In this document: positions 1,232 to 5,549 of the stretch, piece after piece | Layout: every line of letters begins with the position of its first letter | How positions within the stretch are numbered: the stretch's first letter is position 1 | Source: an uncultured Pseudomonadota bacterium | GTDB lineage: Bacteria > Pseudomonadota > Gammaproteobacteria > Methylococcales > Methylomonadaceae | NCBI GenBank assembly: GCA_903931355.1 | Contig: CAIZCB010000471.1 | Coordinates: forward strand, 1-14,549 | DNA length: 14,549 nucleotides | Reading direction: 5' to 3' | The notes under the pieces: generated by a model | The model's database searches: none | Told to the model about the DNA's origin: nothing | What the model saw: the letters and a program-made list of their open reading frames with translations, nothing else | Position numbers and translations under genes: made by a program

Positions 1232-1534
1232 ATGACCGCTATCAGCCTACGACTGCCTGACAATATCGAAGCAAATCTGAAAGCCGAAGCGCTACTGGTC
1301 GGCAAAACCCCTTCAGAAATCGCCCGCTTAGCCATTAGCGAATATTTAGCGCGGCGCGAAAAAGAACGCTTTATGATGCAAATGGTGGCAGAAATTCAAA
1401 CTGCTTATGCGAATCCAGTTATTGCTAATCAGGCACAAGCGTTTGCTGATGAGTTAGTTGATGAAGGCTTAAATGCGGTGATCGCTGCCGAATTAGAAGC
1501 GGGTATCGATCCTGATGAAAAATGGTGGCGCTAA
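1232..1534 (+). CDS. MazE-like antitoxin, ribbon-helix-helix type
   Basis: A 100-residue acidic protein whose N-terminus (ISLRLPDNIEANLKAEALLVGKTPSEIARLAISEYL, given here only as the region of residues 4-39) has the pattern of a CopG/MetJ-type ribbon-helix-helix: a short beta strand followed by two helices. The remainder is helical and strongly acidic near the C-terminus (LEAGIDPDEKWW), as expected of the part that wraps and neutralises a MazF toxin. The start is supported by GGAG at 1222-1225, six bases ahead. The stop overlaps the toxin ATG (TAATG at 1532-1536), which indicates translational coupling. It probably binds the palindrome upstream and represses the operon; this is inferred from the family. 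Confidence 0.82.
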   Translation: MTAISLRLPDNIEANLKAEALLVGKTPSEIARLAISEYLARREKERFMMQMVAEIQTAYANPVIANQAQAFADELVDEGLNAVIAAELEAGIDPDEKWWR

Positions 1535-1875
1535 TGAAGCGGGGTGAGATTTGGGTCGCTAATCTCAATCCTGCGCGTGGCCGTGAAATTGGTAAAGTTC
1601 GTCCGGTATTGATTATTCAAGCTGATGAGCTAATCGCAAGCATTACTCCGATGATTGTGGTTTTACCGCTATCCACTCAAATTTATCCCAGTTTTAAAAT
1701 CTGGCGAGTCACTATCGAAGCTAAAGAGCGTTTATTAAAACCTTGCCAAGTGATTACCGATCAACCAAGAGCCTTGGATAGAAGCCGTTTTGGTGAAGGG
1801 CCGTTGGCAAGCTTAACCCAGCAAGAAATGTTGGCGGTGGAAAAAAGTTTGTCGGCTGTGTTGGGAATGCTTTGA
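1534..1875 (+). CDS. MazF/PemK-family endoribonuclease toxin
   Basis: A 113-residue MazF/PemK-fold toxin, a family of ribosome-independent mRNA interferases. The characteristic order of motifs is present: KRGEIW at the N-terminus (2-7), REIGKVRPVLII (17-28) with the conserved arginine-proline loop, LPLST (44-48), and QVITDQPRALDRSRF (72-86). I start it at the ATG at 1534, which overlaps the antitoxin stop and gives the family-typical MKRGEIW start. An in-frame ATG at 1522 would add four residues (MVAL) inside the antitoxin gene and is less likely. Gene order antitoxin-toxin with one-base overlap is the standard arrangement. The gene appears intact. Cleavage specificity cannot be read from the sequence. 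Confidence 0.9.
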   Translation: MKRGEIWVANLNPARGREIGKVRPVLIIQADELIASITPMIVVLPLSTQIYPSFKIWRVTIEAKERLLKPCQVITDQPRALDRSRFGEGPLASLTQQEMLAVEKSLSAVLGML

Positions 1876-1942: not shown

Positions 1943-2093
1943 AATTGCGCCGTTTTATGCAAAAGTGGGTATGCTTCTAATACTCGTTATCCGCCAGTAG
2001 CAGACGTTCGCGAATGGCTGTTACTGGAATATTCAGAGAGATTGCAAGCATGTTACGAACGGAAATAGACCACTTTGAAAATACCGACTTAAC

Positions 2094-3278
2094 TTATGTT
2101 TTGCTGGACTTGCTAGTAAAATTACGAGTCAAATAGTCGTTGAACATTGGCACGGTGAAAGCGATGTCGCCATGCGAAGGGCTGTAGATCATCCCTTTGC
2201 TGATAATCTGTGCTCGGCGTGGACCCAGACTTTGAGATGATTCCCCCAATGCTTCGGCAACATCGGATGATCGATATGGGCCGGTCCCTAGCTGAGCCAT
2301 GGCAATAACGTACTCCCGTTCTTTTGGTGTGAGTCGATCAAATCGCACCTTAAAAAAGCCATCATCTAAGCGCCGAGTAGCCGCACTCTCAGCTTGTAAC
2401 GCGTCAGCAACTTCAATCCGTTCATTTTGCGCAATATTCCAGCATTGGTAGCCCCATTCTTGCAGGAAGTACGGATAACCTTGGGTTTTGAGCACAATCT
2501 CGTCCAGAGCGTCTTCACTGATGCTCACTCCCTCATCTTCGACGGGTTGCTTGATAGCGCTTTTTGAATCTGTGGGGAGCAGTGGACCTACTGCGGGATA
2601 ATGGAAGAGTCGCTCGGCATATGACTTGGCATTGCTAGATAGCGCAGCAACTTGCGGCAAACCTGCGCCGAAGAAAAGCACAGGTAGCTCCTTCTGACTT
2701 ATTTTGTGAAGAGACACGATTAATGCAGCTAAGTCATCTGGTCGTAGATACTGAACCTCATCGATAAGGAGTGTCCAAGCCTTTCCTGCCGCTTTAGCAG
2801 CATAGCCGACACGAATAAAAAGCTCTGGTAGATCACTTTCTAGGTCTCCGCTATCGGCAACACCTACTTCTGGGTCGACTGACAGAGTAACTTCGCCATA
2901 GGAAAGCTTGAAGGCCGAAGCAAAGGACTTTAGCGCTCTAAGCGCTTGGTGAGCCTGTGCTTTGGCTTGGTCGGTTACAGAGAGTTTTCGCAGAACCTGA
3001 TTGAGTTTTGGAACCAGCATTTCGCTCAATGACTTACCTTCCGGCGCTTCAAGAAATGATGTCAGGTGTCCCCTTTCCTCCGCCATCTTTTCAATTTCGT
3101 TCAGGAGCACGGTTTTACCTACTCCTCGCAAGCCGAGCAACATTTGAGGTCTGCCCCATTTGCCAATCAAGGTTCGCTGAATGGCAACATCCGCATCATT
3201 GAGAATTGCATCGCGGCCAGCAATTTCCGGTGGTTTACTGCCCGCGCCGGGCGCAAAGGGATTTCGTACAGGGTCCAT
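2094..3278 (-). CDS. AAA/STAND-type ATPase with C-terminal winged-helix region
   Basis: A 394-residue P-loop ATPase of the kind annotated simply as ATP-binding protein (archaeal-ATPase-like/AAA_16 group). GLRGVGKT (residues 49-56) is the Walker A motif. WTLLIDEVQYL (168-178) is Walker B with a DE pair. LFFGAGLPQ (201-209) looks like the sensor-1 strand, and TQGYPYFLQEWG (265-276) is the GxP-type motif in the lid domain of this family. The last 80 residues (LTPKEREYVIAMAQL and onward) resemble a winged-helix module. Start: ATG with GGAG at 3284-3287, six bases upstream. It is the minus-strand gene downstream of the integron-like cassettes, but no attC site separates it from the repeat region, so membership in the array is unproven. 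Function is unknown; relatives are often found in accessory DNA. Confidence 0.82.
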   Translation of the reverse strand: MDPVRNPFAPGAGSKPPEIAGRDAILNDADVAIQRTLIGKWGRPQMLLGLRGVGKTVLLNEIEKMAEERGHLTSFLEAPEGKSLSEMLVPKLNQVLRKLSVTDQAKAQAHQALRALKSFASAFKLSYGEVTLSVDPEVGVADSGDLESDLPELFIRVGYAAKAAGKAWTLLIDEVQYLRPDDLAALIVSLHKISQKELPVLFFGAGLPQVAALSSNAKSYAERLFHYPAVGPLLPTDSKSAIKQPVEDEGVSISEDALDEIVLKTQGYPYFLQEWGYQCWNIAQNERIEVADALQAESAATRRLDDGFFKVRFDRLTPKEREYVIAMAQLGTGPYRSSDVAEALGESSQSLGPRRAQIISKGMIYSPSHGDIAFTVPMFNDYLTRNFTSKSSKT

Positions 3279-3290
3279 GGTAGCTCCATA

Positions 3291-3340
3291 TCTATCGAAA
3301 ACTAGCTAAGTATAATGCAATATATTAGATAATCGATAGA
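3291..3340. repeat. Inverted repeat upstream of the ATPase gene
   Basis: TCTATCGA (3291-3298) and TCGATAGA (3333-3340) are perfect 8-base inverted copies, 34 bases apart, just upstream of the ATPase start at 3278. Between them lies an AT-rich stretch with a minus-strand -10-like box TATACT (3314-3309). A paired operator flanking the promoter is possible but unproven. Confidence 0.35.
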
Positions 3341-3447
3341 GTTTTGTAAATTCCGTATACTACCGTTAGCAGGCTATGCGATTAACGGGTATATGCAGGA
3401 CGGGATATTTAAAGTTTCAAATCACTTCAAAGTAACAATAAATAGTG

Positions 3448-3472
3448 CAGACGGGTTTACAAACCCCGTCTG
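3448..3472. repeat. Imperfect palindrome (hairpin-forming repeat)
   Basis: CAGACGGGTTT (3448-3458) is followed after two bases by AAACCCCGTCTG (3461-3472), complementary along its whole length apart from one extra C. It lies in the roughly 360-base stretch without a convincing gene between the ATPase gene and the truncated cassette gene. It looks like an intergenic repeat unit; it has no T-run to make it a terminator on the plus strand. Confidence 0.6.
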
Positions 3473-3497
3473 GCGACAGGTTGTTGGTTAATGCGGC

Positions 3498-3511
3498 ATA
3501 ATGGCCATTAT
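3498..3511. repeat. 14-base perfect palindrome
   Basis: ATAATGGCCATTAT is self-complementary over 14 bases. It sits between the hairpin at 3448-3472 and the larger inverted doublet at 3532-3614 and is probably part of the same palindrome-rich cluster. Confidence 0.55.
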
Positions 3512-3531
3512 TACCAAGTACGGCGTAACGG

Positions 3532-3614
3532 GTAGGGCGCAATAACCAACGGGCATTGCGCCGTATTTGGCCTTCGATCATACGGCGTAATACGCTATCG
3601 CTATTACGCCCTAC
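3532..3614. repeat. Inverted doublet of REP-like palindromic elements
   Basis: Two related hairpin units face each other. Unit 1 (3532-3566) begins GTAGGGCGCAAT and contains a perfect 8-base stem GGCGCAAT/ATTGCGCC (3536-3543 with 3555-3562). Unit 2 (3580-3614) is the reverse complement of a close variant, ending ATTACGCCCTAC, with stem GGCGTAAT/ATTACGCC (3584-3591 with 3603-3610). The spacer is 13 bases. A further partial copy, TACGGCGTAA, lies at 3519-3528. Dispersed palindromes in inverted pairs are the pattern of REP/BIME elements, which can be moved by RAYT transposases; no such transposase is in the window. The open frame reading through this stretch on the minus strand is a by-product of the repeats. 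Confidence 0.75.
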
Positions 3615-3638
3615 TTGCTTCACGTTGTTCAGCGCATC

Positions 3639-3824
3639 CTATGGCCCTAGACGAGTCAATCCTTCGGATATTTTATTAGGGCCGACCAATAGATCCCTTG
3701 CGGTTTGAAGTGCTCCACGGTTTCTGACCATAGAGAGGAACTGTGGAGCTTTATAACCCGTTTCCTCTTTTGAAATCTGGTGTTGCTCCAGAATATGAAT
3801 TTCAAATTCTTGTTCGAGGCTCAT
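3639..3824 (-). pseudogene. Truncated integron cassette gene (cassette C)
   Basis: The minus-strand frame starts 20 bases after the recombination point of the attC site at 3839-3900, with a purine-rich GGAGAGAG ribosome site directly before the ATG. Its protein (EFEIHILEQHQISKEETGYKAPQ and on) matches, as I remember it, a small domain whose members read roughly like EIYERAKxExGYNAxxFLxMV...GGLxTAxxLL...SEGxTxLWExGRLDLTVE. Here the similarity stops after KISEGLTRL: two more residues (GP) and a stop follow, so the usual WExGRLDL end, perhaps 35-40 residues, and the cassette's own attC are missing. The break lies within about 40 bases of the REP-like cluster, suggesting deletion or insertion there. 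A functional short protein cannot be excluded. The family's function is not known to me. Confidence 0.6.
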
Positions 3825-3838
3825 ACTCTCTCCATGAA

Positions 3839-3900
3839 AGCTAACGTTCGAATAATGGGCGCCGCAAGGCGTCCCGTTGATGAAGGGGTAGGTTTTAGCT
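3839..3900 (-). other. Integron attC recombination site of cassette B
   Basis: Read on the minus strand, the site begins AGCTAAAAC (R''-like, 10 bases after the cassette B stop codon) and ends GTTAGCT at 3845-3839, a variant of the consensus GTTRRRY with C in place of the last R. The outer ends AGCTAA and TTAGCT are complementary. The centre pairs GGGACGCC with GGCGCCC around a four-base loop, leaving one unpaired A, like the extrahelical base that integrases use to choose the strand. Length 62 bases, in the usual attC range. Recombination would occur between G3845 and T3844. Confidence 0.72.
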
Positions 3901-3910
3901 GGCAGCCCTA

Positions 3911-4897
3911 TTACCCAGTGTTCTTAAGGGCAGCGAGTTGCGTGTCGATCTGCCCCACGAGGACCGACTTTGACTCCGCCTTTTGGACTTCTCCCGAGAA
4001 CGCATACCAACTCGCCAAATCTGCTTGGTAGTCAGCTAACTTGGCTCCAGCGGCGGGGACAATCGCAAGATGCGGCAGGCCCACGATGCGGAGCAGCGTA
4101 CCTAGCCAGCCGAGAAGCCCGCTCGCATACTTGCCGACTGTATCCTGCTCAATGGCGTCGCGAGCCATAGTCAAGAGCCTCAGCTTCAACTCTGATGTCG
4201 GAGCCGATTGCATCTCGGTAAGTGCGGAAAGGAGATGCTCTCCATATGTTCGCACATTCTTGTCGGGTTTGATCTCAATGAGATTATCTAGACTCTTGGG
4301 GGACAAAAGGAGGCCAGTGGCATCCATGTAAGCATCGGTCGCTGCGATATGAACGTCGCCGATTACTGTGGCATGAATTGCAGGCCGGTCAATCTCGACC
4401 AAGCGTTTAAGGACTTGCCGGCGACCCGGAGAACAGATCACGGGGCAGCGCAGTTCGCGAGATAGGCTGTACTCGTAAAGGATCGAGGACATCACCATCT
4501 TCTGGACGGATTTCGGAATCTTGAAGGTCTGGGTGAGCAAAGTAGATATGACTGGATCGGAGAGGTATCGATGTACATGACCGCTCGTGTCATTAAATAG
4601 TGGCTTGTAGTCGTCCCAGTCGGCATGAAGTCCAAGTTCGATGTGAACTGCATTGCTCGAAGAGAGTTTGGATTTTGGCCAGGGATTGTCTGCTGGCGTG
4701 AGATAGACCTCGTCATAGACAAGCGTAAACATGAGCGCGCGCTCAATGTACTTGGCATAGTTTCGACCGTAGAGAGTCGTGTAGTACGAGTGACTTCCGA
4801 CCGCTCGCGTATAACAACTGCTGGCACCTTGTGTTTGATCAGCAATATATGCGTACAGAGCCCCCGAGTAGGGGTGGCCGAGAATAATCTTGGTCAT
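3911..4897 (-). CDS. Integron cassette B protein of unknown function
   Basis: I do not recognise this 328-residue protein. It occupies nearly the whole of a cassette of about 1083 bases bounded by recombination points at 4928/4927 and 3845/3844. The start ATG lies 30 bases inside the cassette and the stop 10 bases before the attC, a compact layout typical of cassette genes. No Shine-Dalgarno sequence is visible. There is no signal peptide. The N-terminal half is rich in Tyr and His (HPYSGALYAYIAD, SHSYYTTLYGRNYAKY, LHADWDDYKPL), residues 151-168 carry CPVICSPGRRQVLKRLVE, and a hydrophobic stretch at about 258-282 (SGLLGWLGTLLRIVGLPHLAIV) could be one membrane segment or a buried helix. The C-terminus looks helical and charged. 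GC content looks higher than in the flanking core genes, consistent with acquisition. Roles in defence or stress are possible for cassette proteins but nothing here shows one. Confidence 0.78.
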   Translation of the reverse strand: MTKIILGHPYSGALYAYIADQTQGASSCYTRAVGSHSYYTTLYGRNYAKYIERALMFTLVYDEVYLTPADNPWPKSKLSSSNAVHIELGLHADWDDYKPLFNDTSGHVHRYLSDPVISTLLTQTFKIPKSVQKMVMSSILYEYSLSRELRCPVICSPGRRQVLKRLVEIDRPAIHATVIGDVHIAATDAYMDATGLLLSPKSLDNLIEIKPDKNVRTYGEHLLSALTEMQSAPTSELKLRLLTMARDAIEQDTVGKYASGLLGWLGTLLRIVGLPHLAIVPAAGAKLADYQADLASWYAFSGEVQKAESKSVLVGQIDTQLAALKNTG

Positions 4898-4921
4898 GAG
4901 TGGCGAGGAAGGAGTTCTGAA

Positions 4922-4988
4922 ACCTAACGTTGAGGTGAGGGGCGCGACGCCGATAGGCGGAGCGTCCCTCTCGACCGCCGGGTTAGCC
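4922..4988 (-). other. Integron attC recombination site of cassette A
   Basis: On the minus strand the site starts GGCTAAC (4988-4982, R''), five bases after the TAA of cassette A, and ends GTTAGGT (4928-4922), an exact match to the GTTRRRY crossover consensus. Between them GGTCGAGAGGGACGC and GCGCCCCTCACC pair as an interrupted stem, with GCC/GGC closing the loop TATC. Length 67 bases. The unpaired interruptions are what attC folding models expect. This is the clearest of the three sites. Confidence 0.85.
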
Positions 4989-4993
4989 TACGG

Positions 4994-5272
4994 TTACTCA
5001 TTTGAAAGAATGATATTGGATTTGCGTAACTGCAAAATCTCCGGTGTACTCAATAGGCGGTCACAATCTGAAATGAAGCTATCCATCAATGGGGGATTCG
5101 CTTTTGTGTGACCAAAATTGAATTCGCGGTTTGCAATATTTGCGCTTTTGCTCAAGTAATGAACTCGGTCTCTGGATTGAGCATCGGTTTCGATTTGAGT
5201 GACCTTGCGTAACTGCTCATTGGCGGTAATGAAAAATGCACCGACTTGAACTTCACTGCTTTGAACTGGCAT
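4994..5272 (-). CDS. Integron cassette A small hypothetical protein
   Basis: A 92-residue protein without signal peptide or membrane segment. It begins with a likely small beta domain (VQVGAFFITANEQLRKVTQIE), has a central SREFNFGHTKANPP-like stretch (the actual text is NREFNFGHTKANPP, about residues 48-61), and a helical C-terminus (FISDCDRLL, PEILQLRKSNIILSNE). I have the impression of small cassette-borne proteins sharing the FGHTKANPP stretch but cannot name a family. The start is well fixed: AAGGAGGT at 5276-5283 is close to a perfect ribosome site four bases before the ATG. The cassette runs from about 5300 to 4928 (roughly 373 bases) and its attC begins just after the stop. Function unknown. 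Confidence 0.75.
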   Translation of the reverse strand: MPVQSSEVQVGAFFITANEQLRKVTQIETDAQSRDRVHYLSKSANIANREFNFGHTKANPPLMDSFISDCDRLLSTPEILQLRKSNIILSNE

Positions 5273-5294
5273 AAAACCTCCTTTTTTTTAAGTG

Positions 5295-5421
5295 GGCTAA
5301 CTAGTAATTAGATGGTTTCAGTATATCTACAGAAAAATGATTCCCAAACAGTAAATTAGTGATCAGCATAGAAATTCCCCTTCTGTATATCATCGGAACC
5401 TAGTCGGTATGACTGTTAAGC
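5295..5421 (-). other. Longer candidate attC site upstream of cassette A
   Basis: On the minus strand GCTTAAC (5421-5415) matches R'' consensus RYYYAAC exactly, and GTTAGCC (5301-5295) is a near match to GTTRRRY, 127 bases end to end. Inside, GGTTCC..ATAT-ACAGAA near the left end mirrors GGTTTC..ATATCTACAGAA near the right end (as reverse complement), giving an interrupted stem with a two-base bulge. Length resembles the long VCR-type attC sites. It would close an upstream cassette of which nothing recognisable remains between 5422 and 5550. Being the only boundary for cassette A's leader, it could alternatively be a degenerate attI. Confidence 0.5.
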
Positions 5422-5549
5422 ATCAAATTGCCGCCATTGAATCAAATTAGACGATAGACCGCAACGGGTCGAAACGAGTCAATTAAGCCATGAGATATTC
5501 CGAAAGTCAATTCCAACCAATAGCCCTTAAAAGTCAGCTTTTAGCGCTG

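Follow-up and report, generated by a model that had tools for sequence, protein, structure and literature searches.

An integrase-free cassette array headed by a solo attI in a member of the Methylomonadaceae, and the dispersed attI family to which it belongs

The locus and its neighbouring genes

The window, by which we mean the whole 14,549-nucleotide stretch of DNA analysed here, comes from an uncultured member of the Methylomonadaceae, probably of the genus Methylomonas, and makes up one entire contig (G000:C471) of a fragmentary assembly (2.29 Mb in 525 contigs, 84% complete). Two cassette-like ORFs and a short third ORF were listed on its minus strand. One flank of this variable region holds a RelB/MazF-type pair and an AAA ATPase gene, together with the end of a CusA-like gene and a PII-like gene (both named by eye); the other holds a lipocalin-like gene and trpC, a glutaredoxin-like gene, and metH (the last three named by eye). 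The initial annotation of the window had seen no integrase gene, and our searches agreed: no intI was found on the contig, and none in the rest of this genome passed the TIGR02249 cut-off, the top match reaching 87 bits against the 265 required. Because the assembly is 84% complete, an intI could have escaped detection. An Rfam search of the window matched nothing, and a search for tRNA and tmRNA genes in the window found none, which rules out an insertion site of the tRNA type.

The RelB-like/PemK-MazF-like toxin-antitoxin pair (1232-1875, plus strand) adjoins the variable region and has its counterpart in a relative, G189, at L088 8664-9307. The stretch 1990-3640, on the far side of the variable region, bears the AAA ATPase ORF (2094-3278, minus strand). 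It is without counterpart in G189 and in a second relative, G202, where a small secreted-type ORF is found instead, and no attC match falls within it. This stretch is possibly a separate insertion that took away the end of the array. At 3420-3640, immediately past the short third cassette ORF, there are palindromic REP-like repeats (GTAGGGCG.. / ..GCGCCGTA, recognised by eye).

Cassettes and attC sites of the window

Reading the GTT cores from the sequence, we placed cassette 1 at 4928..5300 (between the cores of attI and attC A) and cassette 2 at 3845..4927 (between those of attC A and attC B), both from crossover to crossover on the minus strand. Each carries a minus-strand ORF of unknown function in the ORF list, of 92 aa (4994..5272) and 328 aa (3911..4897), respectively. 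The start of a third cassette is marked by a 61 aa ORF (3639..3824, minus strand) whose ATG lies 20 bases past the attC B crossover and which was probably cut short. None of the three ORFs had a match in Pfam, NCBIfam, or PADLOC. Among 5.8 billion proteins, 29 resembled the 92 aa product; those of Methylomonas koyamae and of Methylomonas sp. DH-1 share 72% identity with it. For the 328 aa product, 32 similar proteins were found (counting itself), the best named relative being from Azotobacter chroococcum at 55%. When the 328 aa protein was modelled (mean pLDDT 77), its structure gave no PDB fold match at E ≤ 0.001, and its sequence profile had no match in the PDB. The 92 aa ORF was present in 1 of 37 genomes of the genus and the 328 aa ORF in 1 of 201 genomes of the family, in both cases the genome of the window itself; these ORFs are therefore not part of conserved operons in the relatives searched.

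We evaluated attC sites with two models trained on cassette arrays adjoining intI genes in the same family: a two-sided weight matrix made from 66 training attC, and a covariance model (R2) made from the 37 training attC of at most 78 bases and run on the window with filters off. Two of three sites previously proposed as attC were matched by R2, with no other match at E < 1 in the window. The first, attC A (4922..4988, minus strand), is canonical, scoring 63.0 bits (E 3.2e-13) with the covariance model and 47.0 bits with the weight matrix, close to the training median of 47.7. The second, attC B (3839..3893, minus strand), is decayed, with a covariance-model score of 19.2 bits (E 0.0053, the calibration being rough) and a weight-matrix score of 15.0 bits, compared with at most 12.1 bits in four control loci and 12.6 bits for attC A read antisense. 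Its R'' box is ACCTACC at 3887-3893, not AGCTAAAAC, which makes the site shorter than first thought, and its covariance-model alignment contains two non-standard pairs and gaps in both L boxes. No integrase gene lies nearby, as in a CALIN; a CALIN also has at least two clustered attC, and attC B, given its E-value of 0.0053 under a rough calibration, may or may not count as the second.

Hairpins had been expected on the minus strand of the window. It is instead the plus strand, corresponding to the bottom strand of the cassettes, that folds better than its shuffles (z -2.0 for attC A and -2.4 for attC B, against -1.1 and -0.3 on the minus strand). The spacing around the sites was described correctly for the next ORF starts, which lie 30 and 20 bases past the crossovers of attC A and attC B; the interval of 5-10 bases from the preceding stop codon holds for attC A (5 bases) but not for attC B (17 bases). 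The cassettes are of integron type, as had been proposed, and this reading withstood both checks set for it: two of the sites gave covariance-model matches, and the relatives searched do not carry the cassette ORFs in ordinary operons.

The attI at the head of the array

The remaining site, once taken for a long attC, matches an attI (5297..5399, minus strand), with a G^TT crossover between 5301 and 5300 at which cassette 1 begins. By blastn, window positions 5297-5394 matched L057:1417-1515 (E 3e-11), which sits between an intact 461-aa IntI and the first cassette of a genome of the same genus, G159. The site also aligned with 44 other copies, and scored 87.8 bits with a sequence-only model (R1), a value to be read with the window copy being one of the model's 41 training rows. 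All 41 rows are intI-less copies; L057, L106, L110, and L159 were left out. R1 nevertheless recovered sites adjacent to intI, each just upstream of the start of a long IntI (L057, 72.0 bits; L110, 58.0 bits; L106, 53.0 bits). Over 59 sources, its only matches besides these three were the window and, at 16.2 bits, a copy in L088 that is truncated at its 5' end. The attI was found at 3 of the 21 loci that we took as the long-IntI class (L057 and L095-L114, some of them cut by contig ends) and at no other intI locus; "long" and "class-I" IntI are labels coined in this analysis.

As an attC, this third site was rejected: neither of its strands folds better than the shuffled controls (z +0.7), it has no covariance-model match, and it matches the attI. 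Since it is an attI and not an attC of another size, the argument for varied cassette origins from sizes of 62, 67, and 127 bases does not apply. The description as a CALIN-like array held for the cassettes and the missing intI and misses the point that the array has a docking site of its own. Because an attI heads the array on a contig without intI, the window carries, as judged from its sequence, an attI-headed array and not just a CALIN. Compared with a complete integron, it has an attI by sequence and attC cassettes from the crossover onward, and lacks a neighbouring intI. An R1 match with no adjoining intI and no IntI match by tblastn places it in a family of solo attI. A single -35/-10-like pair inside the attI (5347-5320, minus strand) was not above chance as a promoter.

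Dispersal of the attI family

Searches with the window attI found matching DNA in 26 of the 37 genomes of the genus, at up to nine places each (blastn). R1 matches occurred in 67 of 201 genomes and 17 of 29 genera of the family, with up to 16 copies per genome. At the order level, 75 of the 77 genomes with matches (301 searched) belong to the family, as do both of the two found at the class level (369 searched). No attI match was found among plasmids (PLSDB). Homology mostly ends soon after the crossover. The crossover G is query base 125; of 88 non-self matches, 74 ended at bases 127-133, 3 went further, and 11 ended short.

Upstream of most dispersed copies, the alignment revealed a left module of about 90 bases (CGACCCGTTGC..TGATTCAATG..) that is absent at the three intI-adjacent copies. 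In the window, it lies at 5400..5475 (minus strand, limits approximate), with an exact motif at 5452-5471. The CGACCCGTTGC.. motif also occurs away from attI; it was found at 31 places in the fetched loci, 19 of which adjoin the attI core. In L141 (genome G079), two attI copies are in tandem at 1111 and 3491, the second lying inside the array of the first and having no left module. At G159:C1:1978472-1979645, about 1 kb of inserted DNA interrupts a copy of the attI, whose two parts cover model positions 3-64 and 57-105.

Cassette arrays behind solo attI copies and traces of their movement

We fetched flanking sequence for 40 loci out of the 88 places, mostly the best-scoring ones, holding 41 solo copies. 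An attC of at least 20 bits was present downstream in cassette orientation for 28 of the 41 copies and missing for 13, one of which (L139) stops at a contig end. The one case of an attC upstream of an attI is explained by the second attI in L141; at L163, an antisense site outscored the sense strand. For the 35 copies with 7 kb of downstream sequence, the same threshold gave an attC in the first 2 kb for 24, at 5-7 kb for one, and upstream for none. attC sites are nearly palindromic; five antisense matches were seen in the first 2 kb behind these 35 copies, one of them at 25 bits.

In a whole-genome census at E ≤ 0.01, the genome with an intact long IntI, G159, had 25 of its 27 attC no more than 6 kb downstream of an attI, five of the 25 behind the intI-adjacent one. 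Random placement gave a mean of 0.24 and never more than 3 in 500 draws. Nine of its 13 attI matches, two of which are halves of the one interrupted copy, had attC. The fractions behind attI of this family were 7 of 21 in G165 (with nine more near its class-I intI), 5 of 14 in G079, and 4 of 11 in G153. The link between attI and attC is thus nearly complete with an intact cognate intI and partial elsewhere.

Cassettes have also moved between these sites. G159 carries one 469-base cassette, 99.8% identical, behind two solo attI that are 2 Mb apart. At 1.72 Mb the cassette directly follows the attI; in the array at 3.78 Mb it comes after the second attC that was detected. The identity begins at the G^TT of the attI and the attC, respectively, and ends at the next GTTAGG. 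Between genomes, a first cassette is shared behind non-orthologous attI by L140 and L146 (595 bases, 95%) and by L145 and L161 (410 bases, 97%). Orthologous solo sites match up to the crossover, give or take a few bases; past it they carry different cassettes, and farther on the match resumes (pairs L138/L143, L144/L149, L137/L146, L152/L158, L153/L168, and L130/L131). The resumption is at an attC end for L130/L131/L141 and L168, and at no evident attC for the other pairs. Two of the genomes with such pairs, G011 and G079 (L138/L143 and L144/L149), both have no intI over the cut-off, which points to an integrase that has been lost, came from outside, or escaped recognition.

The locus of the window itself varies between relatives. 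G189, with flanks 80-95% similar, has a truncated attI at the same place and in the same orientation, followed by a different ORF (281 aa, L088 7085-7930, plus strand) whose product resembles endonucleases of the DpnII-MboI type (Pfam E 2.7e-7) and, weakly, the PADLOC helical-REase model. The putative attC of this ORF scored 4.1 bits only. G202 has neither attI nor cassettes at the locus, and its genome (81% complete) gave no R1 or R2 match at E ≤ 0.01. Direct repeats of 10-12 bases were seen by eye at the G189/G202 locus; deletion between them fits as well as insertion with target duplication.

Integrase genes in relatives

An R1 match was found in 32 genomes of the genus, including that of the window; 13 of these had an intI over the TIGR02249 cut-off and 19 did not, although one of the latter, G171, has intI pieces. 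A long IntI occurs in 3 of the 37 genomes of the genus. It is intact in G159, interrupted by one stop in G165, and in G215 the match ends at 303 of 315. In most attI carriers, an integrase that would serve these sites is therefore missing or was not recognised. One further R1 match lies less than 1 kb from a broken intI (G032:C23). The long IntI P0001 (L057:1-1383, minus strand) begins with some 145 residues for which Pfam has no match, followed by SAM_4 and integrase domains.

With the long IntI as query, at least 5000 plasmid records had an IntI-like match. Among the matches listed, coverage of the query stays below 80%, and the one ranked first shows 43% identity across 73% of it. A record outside those listed has 60-80% identity over a smaller part.

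Origin of the array

The window combines a sequence matching the attI beside a long IntI in relatives with two cassettes and the start of a third, on a contig without intI. We consider it likely that an IntI acting in trans inserted these cassettes; the support for such action consists of traces of past recombination, namely exact boundaries and exchanged cassettes. An integrase that is encoded at another place in the genome, or that has meanwhile disappeared, would recombine the bottom strand of the cassette attC; each solo attI would receive cassettes, and one integrase would serve many docking sites. Against this reading count the 13 solo copies with no attC downstream, the partial link in G079, G153, and G165, the scarcity of long IntI in the genus and of this attI at long-IntI loci, the low scores of attC B and of the putative attC in G189, and the resumption points at no evident attC. 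Since the attI is itself an interspersed repeat, a single chromosome would have a dozen or more separate cassette docking ports. On balance, we favour extending this to a "distributed integron" in Methylomonas and its family, in which interspersed attI serve as a dozen or more ports, one trans-acting IntI (resident, lost, or supplied via mobile DNA) deals the cassettes, and the attI units are themselves copied.

Alternatively, the array could be what remains of an ordinary integron after loss of intI at this position (a CALIN by decay), and the other copies would be broken integrons likewise. The absence of intI from both the genome of the window and G189 would fit, as would the decay of attC B, the truncated look of the third cassette ORF, the intI pieces under the cut-off in G171, and the few tens of bases resembling the 5' end of intI that L159 keeps upstream of its attI. 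However, tblastn with two IntI queries over 356,677 bases (the 40 fetched solo loci, the window, and L088) found no intI piece, and in most dispersed copies the left module occupies the position at which intI would begin. Nor would one decayed integron leave a dozen copies per genome and an exchange of cassettes among them in a genome whose intI is intact, and we regard this explanation as unlikely. Still less probable is that the repeat of 100 bases belongs to the transposable or REP-type elements and is found with cassettes by coincidence. Although the repeat is interspersed and the left module travels with most copies, the same repeat is the attI of three long IntI genes, its homology ends at the crossover, cassette boundaries are exact, and attC follow on one side and strand only. 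Cassettes are known to insert at genomic sites of a non-classical kind, attG (Loot et al., 2024, as cited in PMC12444791), and such insertion yields integrase-free cassettes, but attG are described in the part of PMC12901181 consulted as strongly diverged from classical att sites. The site in the window is not a diverged sequence that is neither attI nor attC; it matches a conserved element of about 103 bases common to the intI-adjacent attI, which makes an attG origin the most improbable of these readings. Insertion in trans by an IntI accounts best for the cassette array in our view.

Relation to known systems and implications

A complete, sedentary chromosomal integron likewise has an attI, attC cassettes, a G^TT crossover, and cassettes oriented away from the attI, and the same attI adjoins a long IntI in three relatives. 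It has an intI and one attI, whereas here the array is without an adjoining intI and each genome has many attI. CALINs, as they appear in the relevant passages of PMC9024848 and PMC12444791, are similar in having attC without a neighbouring integrase, and in Xanthomonas integrase-free attC clusters occur at several loci per genome and are mobilised in trans, according to the same part of PMC12444791; the arrays described here differ in that they begin at a conserved attI. The standard program searches attI in class 1 only, according to its description in PMC9024848. Dispersed attI of other classes are for this reason easily overlooked, and arrays such as these would by default be filed as CALINs or, if they have one attC, go unreported. 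Cassettes scattered over chromosomes without a local intI also arise by attG insertion (Loot et al., 2024, in the account given by PMC12444791), but attG have diverged from attI and attC, and here one attI sequence is conserved. Cassettes with a partial attI (delta-attI) in class 1 and class 2 integrons, treated in sections of PMC12901181, similarly place attI-derived sequence away from intI; there, however, delta-attI takes the place of a cassette's attC within an array, and here the attI heads separate arrays across the chromosome. A passage of PMC10127599 mentions attI-like secondary sites in genomes, and attC of Methylococcales were already known from the portion of PMC8352920 consulted. 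The portions of the open-licence literature searched contained no report of a conserved attI as a multi-copy chromosomal family or of dispersed solo attI.

The usual description of an integron pairs a single attI with a single neighbouring integrase. In the family reported here, docking sites have multiplied and are no longer coupled to the integrase, so that one chromosome could have cassettes in first position, for which the best expression is expected, at many of its loci. Such an arrangement would offer a concrete origin for some of the arrays without integrase that are currently classed as CALINs, and it would provide a natural system for studying the trans action of IntI on chromosomal attI.
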